The notes under the pieces were generated by a model. That model did not search any database and was not told the DNA's origin. It worked only from the letters and a program-made list of their open reading frames with translations. This document shows, piece after piece, positions 15,707 through 56,615 of a stretch of DNA of 64,000 bases; position 1 is the first letter of the stretch; the number at the start of each line of letters is the position of its first letter. A program made the translations under genes and the position numbers. Source of the DNA: Thermoflexus hugenholtzii (GTDB taxonomy: Bacteria > Chloroflexota > Anaerolineae > Thermoflexales > Thermoflexaceae); NCBI RefSeq assembly GCF_018771565.1, contig NZ_CP076326.1, positions 1,488,001 through 1,552,000 of the forward strand. Reading direction: 5' to 3'.

Positions 15707-15712
15707 TAAAAT
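15707..15712 (+). promoter_or_regulatory. -10-like box cut off from infA by the TnpB element
   Basis: TAAAAT lies at 15707-15712, 9 bp before the left end of the TnpB element. The same box stands before obg and the aminotransferase. Without the element it would lie about 60 bp before infA, so it may be the ancestral infA promoter. This is inference. Confidence 0.35.
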
Positions 15713-15795
15713 TATGGATGTAGGAGTTACGCAGTTGGATGCGTCCTTCTCTTCACGCGGCGGACGGGGCTATCATCATGATGGAGGCAGCGACG

Positions 15796-16977
15796 ATGCC
15801 GACGGTCTGCCTGCGGTTCCGATTCGAGGAGCATCCCAAAATCCGCGCCCTGATGGAGGCCTGCGCCGACATCCAGCGACAGGCCGTCGACTACGCCCTG
15901 GAAAACGGCAAAACCGCCACCTTCACCCTCATCCAGGCCCTCTACCCCTCCCTGCGCGCGCAGCATCCGGATCTCCACTCCAACCTCATCTACGGGGCGA
16001 TCCGATCCGGCGCCCGGATCGTCCACGGCTTCCGAAACCAGCAGCGGAAGGGGAAAACCCGGGCGGACCGGCCGGAGATCCGGCGCCCCTCGATCTATCT
16101 GGTCCGGCAGACGGTGAAGATCGAATGGGATGGCGAGACCCTGACCGTCACGATTCCGGTCTCCCCCCGGGATCCGGAGCCCATCGTCCTCACCTTCCGC
16201 CCTCATCACCAGTATCGCCGGCTGCTGGACGAGTGGAAGGCGGGGCGGGCGCGGATGGGGGAGCCGACGCTCACGGCCCATTCCCTCTCCATCCCCTTGA
16301 AGTTCCCCGACCCCATCCCCTATAAGCCGGAGGGGGTGATCGGGATCGACAGCAATGAAGGTAACCTCACGGCCTTCGTGACCTCCACCGGCGAGATCCG
16401 GGAGATCGACACCCGGTATGTGGGGAAGGTCAACCGGGACCATCTGCGGCGCGAGATCAAAGGGACGAGAGGGAAGCACAACCCAAAGGCCAAAAAGAAG
16501 ATCGCCTCCAAGCATCGAAGGATTCGCCGGGAGAAGACGGAGAACTTCTGGCATCATCTGGCCCTGGCCTTGATCGCCTGGGCGCTGGGGATGCGGGCGG
16601 CCCTGGTGCTGGAGGATCTGAAGGGGATGAAGGAGCGGATCGGGAAGGGAAAGTCCAGGAGGATGCGGCAGCGTCTGCTCAATTTCTGGAGCATTATGAC
16701 TTTCCATCGCATTCTGGTTCACAAGGCAAGATTCTACGGCGTTCCGGTGATTTGGGTGGATCCGCAGAACACGTCCCGGTCGTGTCCGGTATGCGGCAAG
16801 GTGGGTGAAAGGCTAAGGGGACACGCCTTGGCGTGCCCTTGCGGGGCGAGGATGGGCCGTCACGAGGCGGCGGCGGTGAACATCGCCCGCAGGGGGGTGG
16901 AATTCCTCGAGGGCTTGGGCCTTCGAGGCAGGGGTCGGTGGGCGACCCCGGTGGCCGGTCCTCTGGCCTCGGGTTAA
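15796..16977 (+). CDS. tnpB: TnpB-like RNA-guided nuclease relative (OrfB, zinc ribbon)
   Basis: This 393-residue TnpB-family protein has an N-terminal wedge-like region and a RuvC-I motif GVIGIDSNEGN at about 181. A basic stretch KHNPKAKKKIASKHRRIRR follows, then the RuvC-II motif ALVLEDLKGMKE at about 270. The zinc ribbon is SCPVCGKVG...LACPCGARMG at about 334-356. Where active TnpB has the RuvC-III aspartate (DxNAAxNI), this protein reads HEAAAVNI, so that catalytic Asp seems replaced by His. The start MPTVCLRF was chosen because GGAGG lies 8 nt upstream; an in-frame ATG at 15739 is nearer the element end. Confidence 0.85.
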   Translation: MPTVCLRFRFEEHPKIRALMEACADIQRQAVDYALENGKTATFTLIQALYPSLRAQHPDLHSNLIYGAIRSGARIVHGFRNQQRKGKTRADRPEIRRPSIYLVRQTVKIEWDGETLTVTIPVSPRDPEPIVLTFRPHHQYRRLLDEWKAGRARMGEPTLTAHSLSIPLKFPDPIPYKPEGVIGIDSNEGNLTAFVTSTGEIREIDTRYVGKVNRDHLRREIKGTRGKHNPKAKKKIASKHRRIRREKTENFWHHLALALIAWALGMRAALVLEDLKGMKERIGKGKSRRMRQRLLNFWSIMTFHRILVHKARFYGVPVIWVDPQNTSRSCPVCGKVGERLRGHALACPCGARMGRHEAAAVNIARRGVEFLEGLGLRGRGRWATPVAGPLASG

Positions 16978-16997
16978 AAACCCAAGGCCACGACCGG
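16955..16997 (+). ncRNA. omega-RNA-like hairpin across the tnpB stop codon, copy 1
   Basis: GGCCTCGGGTT (16965-16975) pairs with AACCCAAGGCC (16979-16989) with one C/A mismatch. An outer stem CCGGTC / GACCGG (16955-16960 and 16992-16997) surrounds it. The TAA stop lies at the loop. Copy 2 has the same fold. TnpB guide RNAs overlap the 3' end of tnpB and the right element end, so this is a candidate scaffold; expression is not shown. Confidence 0.5.
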
Positions 16998-17075
16998 AAT
17001 ACGCAGGCAACTGCGTAAGTCCTAGGATGGATCATCGCGTCCGAAGGGACCATCCTCGAAGCCCCGGGAGGCTCG

Positions 17076-41059: not shown

Positions 41060-41367
41060 GAAGTAAGAGTAGAGGAGAAGCTCAGGACCACCGGGAAGGC
41101 CCGAAGGTTTCTTGATTGGGGTCTCAATCCGAGGCGCGGCATATCGCTTTAGTGATGAGCCTTTTCCAGCTCCTGAAGCTCATGCTGAAGTGGGAACACC
41201 CGATATCGCTCCAGGCTCAACAAAAATTCCACCCGGGACAGCCCGGCCAGCTCTGCGGCTCGCCCGGAGGATAGGCGTCCCATTTCATAGAGCCAGGAGT
41301 TACGCAGTTGGATTCGTCCTTCTCCCCACGCGGCGGATGGGTTATCATCATGATGGAGGTGGCGACG

Positions 41368-42549
41368 ATGCCGACGGTCTGCCTGCGGTTCCGATTCGAA
41401 GAGCATCCCAAAATCCGCGCCCTGATGGAGGCCTGCGCCGACATCCAGCGGCAGGCCATTGATTATGCTTTGGAAAACGGCAAAACCGCCACCTTCACCC
41501 TCATCCAGGCCCTCTACCCCTCCCTGCGCGCGCAGCATCCGGATCTCCACTCCAACCTCATCTACGGGGCGATCCGATCCGGCGCCCGGGTCGTCCACGT
41601 CTTTCGGAATCAACAGCGGAGAGGGAAGACCCGGGCGGACCGGCCGGAGATCCGGCGCCCCTCGGTCTACCTGGTTCGGCAGACGGTGAAGATCGAATGG
41701 GATGGCGAGATCCTGACCGTCACGATTCCGGTCTCCCCCCGGGATCCGGAGCCCATCGTCCTCACTTTCCGTCCCCACCACAAGTATCGCCGGCTGCTGG
41801 ACGAGTGGAAGGCGGGGCGGGCGAGGATGGGGGAGCCGACGCTCACGGCCCACTCCCTCTCCATCCCCCTCAAGTTCCCCGATCCCATCCCCTATAGGCC
41901 GGAGGGGGTGATCGGGATCGATAGCAACGAGGGGAATCTGACGGCCTTCGTGACCTCCACCGGCGAGATCCGGGAGATCGACACCCGGTATGTGGGGAAG
42001 GTCAACCGGGACCATCTGCGGCGCGAGATCAAAGGGACGAGAGGAAAGCACAACCCGAAGGCCAAGAAGAAGATCGCCTCCAAACACCGAAGGATTCGCC
42101 GGGAGAAGACGGAGAACTTCTGGCATCATCTGGCCCTGGCCTTGATTGCCTGGGCGCTCGGGATGAAAGCGGCTCTGGTGCTGGAGGATCTCAAGGGGAT
42201 GAAGGAGCGGATCGGGGAGGGGAAGTCCAGGAGGATGCGGCAGCGCCTGCTCAATTTCTGGAGCATTATGACTTTCCATCGGATTCTGGTTCACAAGGCG
42301 AGGTTTTACGGGGTTCCGGTGATTGGGGTGGATCCGCAGAACACGTCCCGGGCGTGTCCGGTATGCGGCAGGGTGGGTGAAAGGCTAAGGGGACACGTCC
42401 TGGCGTGCCCTTGCGGGGTGAGGATGGGCCGTCACGCGGCGGCGGCGGTGAACATCGCCCGCAGGGGGGTGGAATTCCTCGAGGGCTTGGGCCTTCGAGG
42501 CAGGGGTCGGTGGGCGACCCCGGTGGCCGGTCCTCTGGCCTTGGGCTAA
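41368..42549 (+). CDS. tnpB: TnpB-like protein, copy 2
   Basis: This 393-residue protein is nearly identical to the product at 15796-16977; most nucleotide differences are silent. RuvC-I GVIGIDSNEGN, RuvC-II LVLEDLKGMKE and the zinc ribbon (ACPVCGRVG, LACPCGVRMG) are intact. The RuvC-III position again reads His (GRHAAAAVNIARR), so the change is not a copy-specific error. Start MPTVCLRF with GGAGG as in copy 1. Confidence 0.85.
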   Translation: MPTVCLRFRFEEHPKIRALMEACADIQRQAIDYALENGKTATFTLIQALYPSLRAQHPDLHSNLIYGAIRSGARVVHVFRNQQRRGKTRADRPEIRRPSVYLVRQTVKIEWDGEILTVTIPVSPRDPEPIVLTFRPHHKYRRLLDEWKAGRARMGEPTLTAHSLSIPLKFPDPIPYRPEGVIGIDSNEGNLTAFVTSTGEIREIDTRYVGKVNRDHLRREIKGTRGKHNPKAKKKIASKHRRIRREKTENFWHHLALALIAWALGMKAALVLEDLKGMKERIGEGKSRRMRQRLLNFWSIMTFHRILVHKARFYGVPVIGVDPQNTSRACPVCGRVGERLRGHVLACPCGVRMGRHAAAAVNIARRGVEFLEGLGLRGRGRWATPVAGPLALG

Positions 42550-42567
42550 AACCCAAGGCCACGACCG
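42530..42567 (+). ncRNA. omega-RNA-like hairpin across the tnpB stop codon, copy 2
   Basis: GGCCTTGGG (42537-42545) and CCCAAGGCC (42552-42560) form a perfect 9-bp stem with the TAA stop in the loop. The outer CCGGTC / GACCGG stem is also conserved. Copy 1 differs by one base that creates a C/A mismatch. Confidence 0.5.
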
Positions 42568-42735
42568 GAATACGCAGGAAACAGCGTAAGTCCTATTTCT
42601 CTGCCAGGAGCACCTTATCCGGGATTTCCAGGAAGATCCTCCGCGTGGCCATCCGGCCCTCCCTGACGACCCTGCAAGTCGCCCCGCGCCTCTTTCACAT
42701 CATACCATACCGCGCAGCGCTGCTCCCATGTCACC

Positions 42736-56204: not shown

Positions 56205-56615
56205 CGCAGCTAAAGCCGCTCCTACAAAAAGGCGGTTTTTGTAGGAGGGGCTTCAGCCCCGAACGTTCTGTCTTCGATCGCACAAGGTTCGCAGTGAAGA
56301 CCACTCCGTAACTCCTAACCTATGGCTCTCGATGGCGCAAAGGTCGCGGCTAAAGCCGCTCCTACAAAAAGATGGTTTCTACAGGAGGGGCTTCCGCCCC
56401 GAACCTCCGTCTTCGATCGCGCAAGGATCGCGACGGACGCCGCCCCGACAACCCCAAACCCCTGGCTCTCGATGACACAATGGTCGCGGCTAAAGCCGCT
56501 CCTACAAAAAGACGGTTTCTGTAGGAGGGGCTTCAGCCCCGAACCTCCGTCTTCGATCCCACGATGGTCGCGGCGAAAGCCGGCCCTGCGGAAAGCCTTA
56601 GCCCCGAACCCTGGC
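56205..56615. repeat. cluster of REP-like palindromes
   Basis: Alternating CGGCTAAAGCCGCTCCTACA and GTAGGAGGGGCTTCAGCCCC units occur near 56213, 56240, 56347, 56383, 56488, 56521 and 56570. They are joined by 'TCTTCGATCGCACAAGGTCG' linkers. These are the same families as at 5109-5612. The 656-bp gap before fdxA holds nothing else except the fdxA promoter. Confidence 0.85.

Follow-up and report, generated by a model that had tools for sequence, protein, structure and literature searches.

A TnpB-encoding element with the inverted ends and target duplications of an IS701-type transposon in Thermoflexus hugenholtzii

The 64,000-nucleotide stretch of the Thermoflexus hugenholtzii genome analysed here (contig NZ_CP076326.1, positions 1,488,001 to 1,552,000; hereafter the window) contains, at 15721–17024 on the plus strand, a 1304-bp element in which tnpB is the only gene identified (15796–16977, plus strand; 393 amino acids, starting MPTVCL). 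As it has no transposase gene of its own, the element is non-autonomous, so that any mobilisation would have to be in trans. It is bounded by 17-bp terminal inverted repeats, TAGGAGTTACGCAGTTG on the left (15721–15737, plus strand) and TAGGACTTACGCAGTTG on the right (17008–17024, minus strand), exactly as the initial annotation had claimed, and is flanked on both sides by GGATG (15716–15720 and 17025–17029, neither assigned to a strand), so that the observation of a TnpB-only element with such ends and such a duplication is confirmed. The same ends had been claimed for a second copy at 41294–42595 (plus strand), which is 94% identical to the first and contains an intact tnpB at 41368–42551; the inverted ends are indeed present there, with C as the first base, but the target duplication is absent, the flanking bases being AGAGC and TTTCT. 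In total the window contains five matches to the end pattern, with up to three mismatches allowed, where 0.02 would be expected by chance.

The host genome (G000, genus Thermoflexus; 3.32 Mb in one contig) carries twelve full copies of 1302–1304 bp, which are 91–94% identical to the window copy and have near-identical ends. Ten of the twelve are flanked by a perfect duplication, nine times of 5 bp and once of 6 bp (TTTAGG, L034), and the two copies without one include the second copy of the window. The joined flanks of ten sites were searched against eight congeners (the congeneric species being Candidatus Thermoflexus tengchongensis and Ca. T. japonica), and clean empty sites were recovered at seven loci (L031, L032, L034, L037, L039, the L040 composite and L042), with the duplicated bases in single copy and one or two bases altered in some; an eighth site, L035, is also empty in a congener, with small indels. 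For the window copy, the empty site in G004 (L344) has GGATG once and not twice, which bears out its earlier reading as a target duplication. Empty sites that carry the duplicated bases once therefore settle the boundaries of the element.

One of the nine 5-bp sites, L040, sits in a composite at G000:C1:1476886-1478534, 9.5 kb before the window, in which an omega-RNA-only element (L011) and a tnpB copy (L040) stand in tandem. The two share a single outer duplication, TCTCT, preceded by CTCAT, and a 114-bp miniature inverted-repeat transposable element (MITE) with the 6-bp duplication CATCAT lies just upstream of the L040 tnpB start. The two duplication-less copies (41294–42595 of the window and G000:C1:2293852-2295153; L033 and L038) both start with CAGGA, and the five bases to the left of one, TTTCT, recur as the five to the right of the other; these flanks suggest recombination between inverted copies.

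Considering which family such an element could belong to, 17-bp inverted ends and duplications of 5–6 bp are foreign both to IS200/IS605 elements, which have neither, and to IS607 elements, which are moved by a serine recombinase and likewise lack both. One might instead see in the locus the decayed remains of an IS605/IS607 or IS1341-type tnpB element, with inverted ends and duplications that arose by coincidence or through insertion beside MITEs, and the tnpB-only layout does resemble that of IS1341-type elements. We regard this as highly improbable: the near-identical ends of all twelve copies match a DDE-type element, duplications flank ten of them, the empty sites contradict it, and the last hairpin of the predicted omega-RNA described below itself uses the right inverted repeat.

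The initial annotation had proposed that tnpB resides in a DDE-type transposon and that an autonomous transposase with the same ends should be sought. In the congener G001, two exact copies of TAGGAGTTACGCAGTTG enclose a 308-amino-acid IS701-family transposase (NF049921, transpos_IS701_2; 377 bits, cut-off 250), the whole element measuring 1107 bp. The search was thus successful in the congener, while in the host genome only relics were found, in the form of decayed relatives of this transposase (fragments at 68% and 50–59% identity) next to the same ends (204450 and 1600445). Class-wide, IS701_2 transposases are flanked by TAGGACTTACGCA or TAGGACTTTCGC ends, and two of these elements have 5-bp duplications (AGATA and ACTCG). 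The same ends also bound MITEs without tnpB, namely four of 114 bp in the host genome, two of which have duplications, and others in G026, G023 and G005, whose duplications are mostly of 5 bp, with some of 4, 6 and 7; the inner ends of the G002 and G005 MITEs read GTTC. A short duplication, mostly of 5 bp, is therefore a feature common to the tnpB copies, the MITEs and the two class IS701_2 elements, and the tnpB elements differ from an IS701 element in having only tnpB inside and no DDE transposase of their own. The inverted ends, the duplications, the empty sites and the ends held in common with an IS701 transposase and MITEs together support, at the level of sequence comparison, the assignment of the element as a non-autonomous IS701-type (DDE) transposon with tnpB and a right-end omega-RNA as its cargo, and the proposal of a DDE-type carrier is borne out to that extent.

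PF01609 matches were also considered as candidate partner transposases and set aside, as they are mostly other transposases (e.g. L128, L131 and L141), only L135 and its relatives fitting. MITEs have undergone a large expansion in two Thermoflexus species, with 237 (G002) and 283 (G005) exact end matches in elements of 86–190 bp.

Cas12 descends from TnpB, and the protein encoded here is recognised as a TnpB/OrfB protein by PF07282 (49.5 bits, cut-off 26.3) and TIGR01766 (50.0, cut-off 32), with NF040570 falling just below its cut-off (99.5 bits against 100). Its predicted fold (mean confidence, pLDDT, 82) matches Cas12f and TnpB structures. The 393-amino-acid frame is intact in all twelve host copies, and a ratio of non-synonymous to synonymous divergence (dN/dS) of 0.15 among the copies indicates purifying selection on tnpB. 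Alignment places D185, E273 and His356 (codon 16861–16863) at the RuvC site of all copies, and the third residue is histidine in all twelve host copies, in L212 and in the 50%-identical proteins of G001 and G008, whereas relatives at 31–37% identity over the aligned part have aspartate there. Cleavage is uncertain because histidine replaces the third catalytic aspartate clade-wide. Histidine can serve at the last-helix metal site of other RNase H-fold nucleases, as in the DEDH site of Argonaute, and loss of cleavage therefore does not follow. At 50% identity or more, this TnpB clade was found in the genus Thermoflexus only among 396 genomes of the class, plus one unclassified metagenome-assembled genome (L212). 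Another member of the class from a different family, G045, has at least 30 copies of a different TnpB of ~30% identity, with the canonical aspartate.

The last 128 bp of the element (16897–17024, plus strand) are predicted to encode an omega-RNA scaffold of four hairpins, the last of which, with a stem of 5–7 bp, is formed by pairing of the right inverted repeat with upstream bases. The folding z-score of this segment is -5.8, and nine pairs are changed on both sides among 14 sequences, with 16 cells against 5.6 in shuffled data (0 of 500 shuffles reaching this) and a helix register that is lost on sliding. Synonymous divergence is 0.136 over the last 43 tnpB codons against 0.288, about half where the RNA overlaps the gene. 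Judging from covariation and folding, the element would thus possess the structured omega-RNA of TnpB systems, which overlaps the 3' end of tnpB and reaches the element end. In the second copy the corresponding segment (42468–42595, plus strand) is the best match of the RNA model R1, at 156.9 bits. An Rfam scan of the omega-RNA gave nothing above threshold, which places it outside the curated families, and a consensus search found no sigma-70-like promoter in the element. By analogy with known TnpB biology, and with an assumed length, the guide is predicted at 17025–17044 (plus strand), comprising the right duplication as its first 5 nt and then the right flank; as the duplication differs at every site, it would have to be part of the guide. 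Elements of about 225–240 bp keep both ends and the omega-RNA without tnpB, and the host genome also has four shorter elements or relics that retain the 3' RNA region.

A guide taken from the right flank calls for a target-adjacent motif (TAM) on the left, and here the initial annotation, which had found no motif to the left of the copies and had contrasted this with TAM-directed insertion, does not stand. YAT (CAT or TAT) lies just 5' of the left duplication, in the orientation of tnpB, in 12 of 12 host copies; it was overlooked because the bases that touch the element are those of the duplication. In the first copy the motif is TTAT (15712–15715, plus strand), directly 5' of the left duplication and present at the congener empty site, and in the second it is CAT (41286–41288, within TTCAT at 41284–41288, plus strand), 5 bp from the left end. 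The motif is one-sided, being present on the left in 10/10 cases and on the right in 1/10 (p=1.2e-4), and is rare beside MITEs, with 4/44 sides in the genus (Fisher p=3e-9 against the 12/12 of the tnpB copies) and 3/54 sides in a second set drawn mostly from other class members (p=9e-11). Longer duplications push it outward, as seen at L034 (6 bp) and at the omega-RNA-only element of G006 (7 bp), and empty sites in congeners carry YAT and a single duplication in the gapless order TAM, duplication, right flank. Such an arrangement suggests that YAT is a TAM which the duplication has pushed away from the element, in the layout that a right-end guide would need, and, on the evidence of the twelve copies and the empty sites, the element appears to share with TnpB systems a TAM that lies 5' of a target matching the right flank.

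YAT could instead be a target preference of the IS701 transposase that moves the elements, with tnpB a passenger whose RNA-guided activity is irrelevant to location. Beside the duplication, MITE sites indeed favour AT-rich sequence in a roughly symmetric way (T at -1, A/T at -2, A at -3), and the control MITEs could have been moved by transposases unlike that of the host lineage. However, a one-sided motif fixed to the orientation of tnpB and its RNA is not what one would expect of a transposase that acts on near-identical ends; moreover, A at -3 occurs on 34/54 and 21/44 MITE sides and in 0/12 host tnpB copies, and the host MITE L004 has TTT/AAA sides. We therefore think it unlikely that transposase preference accounts for the motif.

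A reading of CAT as a start codon was rejected, since most copies have only short reading frames starting at the motif. Two omega-RNA-only elements, G000:C1:1792633-1792850 and one on G006:C399 (L043 and L123), are closely similar and adjoin tRNA-like sequence; their left sides read TTAT in G000, where the left end has lost 6 bp, and TTTAT before the 7-bp duplication in G006. The 188-bp MITEs of G005 give omega-RNA-like matches of 25–31 bits and, where this could be checked, have no YAT; they were treated as marginal.

Cutting of element-free plasmids by TnpB is known to drive an IS200/605 element, acting as a gene drive against DNA free of the insertion sequence (PMC11870625). For the element described here we consider it likely that an IS701 transposase mobilises it in trans, and that a TnpB ribonucleoprotein acts on element-free alleles so that insertions beside a TAM persist. 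The transposase would cut and paste the element with little target specificity, and RNA transcribed through the right end would carry the duplication and right flank as a guide. The ribonucleoprotein would then recognise the YAT TAM and a guide match on an allele that lacks the element, whether on sister, excised or incoming DNA, and favour the element-bearing allele by cleavage or binding. Protection of this kind would reach only insertions beside a TAM and in the right orientation, so that only these would persist. The arrangement suggests an RNA-guided system that safeguards the insertions of an unrelated transposase.

Several observations weigh against this proposal. The host genome yielded no intact IS701_2 transposase with these ends, and a palindrome apparently interrupts the G001 copy near its C-terminus. 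Control sites for the TAM came mostly from congener MITEs, the host contributing two with duplications. GAT in place of YAT is found at the two G001 copies, which belong to the 50%-identical TnpB subfamily, and at the 89%-identical copy L212, and in the G008 relative (L116) the duplication is lost and there is no AT at the expected place. Finally, the protein departs from the D-E-D triad of TnpB, and Cas12m2 (type V-M), which has an altered triad (HDD), binds DNA without cleaving it and protects by binding (PMC10442227).

The last two points lead to the alternative that a D-E-H TnpB is a non-cleaving RNA-guided DNA binder, whose binding maintains or propagates the element, for instance through occlusion of the empty site or guidance of the IS701 transposase or of repair. 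As this is the best explanation with cleavage exchanged for binding, the confidences in the two overlap. The conservation of the histidine across the clade, with aspartate in the more distant relatives, and the behaviour of Cas12m2 speak for it, and the usability of histidine in Argonaute and the lack of any established binding-only mechanism that retains a transposon speak against it; on balance it is a minority possibility that deserves some weight. Slightly less probable is a related reading, in which the D-E-H protein is a binding, non-cutting factor that biases IS701 insertion or repair to TAM sites or restrains element-free alleles. If true, this would be a pairing of a bacterial RNA-guided effector with a DDE transposase whose origin is independent of CRISPR-associated transposons.

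The transposases described alongside bacterial TnpB proteins are of the Y1 or serine type, and it is their chemistry that determines where the TAM lies. The present element resembles those IS200/IS605 and IS607 elements in its TnpB, in a structured RNA that runs over the 3' end of tnpB to the element end, and in a guide (predicted here) from the right flank with the TAM left of the target. It differs from them in its probable movement by a DDE transposase, with inverted ends, 5-bp duplications and histidine as the third RuvC residue, and in that the duplication separates the TAM from the element and would join the guide. With the IS701 (NF049921) elements and their MITEs it shares terminal TAGGASTTACGCA, 5-bp duplications and autonomous partners of about 1.1 kb; its cargo of tnpB and omega-RNA replaces the transposase, and its target has a one-sided YAT. 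Cas12m2 and nuclease-dead TnpB-like proteins likewise combine an altered RuvC site with a compact Cas12/TnpB-like protein, but here it is the third aspartate that has become histidine, in a protein still carried by a multi-copy transposon.

The closest parallel for a DDE carrier is found in the Fanzors, which are eukaryotic and are marked by DPG or alternative-Glu RuvC signatures. In contrast to TnpBs, Fanzors occur in association with many families of transposons; Fanzor1/Fanzor2* are TnpB-like proteins in DDE transposons with inverted ends and duplications, and the inverted repeat there contributes to the RNA scaffold (Yoon et al. 2023, PMC10711439). In Fanzors the duplication is in the scaffold, whereas in this bacterial element it is predicted to be in the guide, with the TAM outside. 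In the literature searched, whose coverage excluded subscription papers and most preprints, no bacterial TnpB is described within a DDE element, and the pairing of a TnpB-like protein with DDE transposition is known there only for eukaryotic Fanzors. In the present element, RNA-guided logic appears to work with an unrelated transposase that makes duplications. As the TAM signal is separated from the target choice of the transposase, the idea of retention (homing) becomes testable with an independent transposase, and the conserved active-site histidine invites one to ask whether a transposon can be favoured through RNA-guided binding alone.

Two minor features were also noted. The palindrome in the IS701 transposase, of ~28 bp (GGAGTGCGG..CCGCACTCC), is inserted in the 3' end of the gene (L135, near 2225-2255), and the same sequence is inserted in an omega-RNA of Ca. 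T. tengchongensis (L115); it is perhaps a small mobile palindrome. In the window, the end-pattern match at 56301–56317 was rejected as an element, being a lone half site with two mismatches in a repeat-rich stretch; between 56180 and 56600, GTCGCGGCTAAAGCCGCTCCTACA units are repeated, and the half site, TAGGAGTTACGGAGTGG on the minus strand, precedes one of them.
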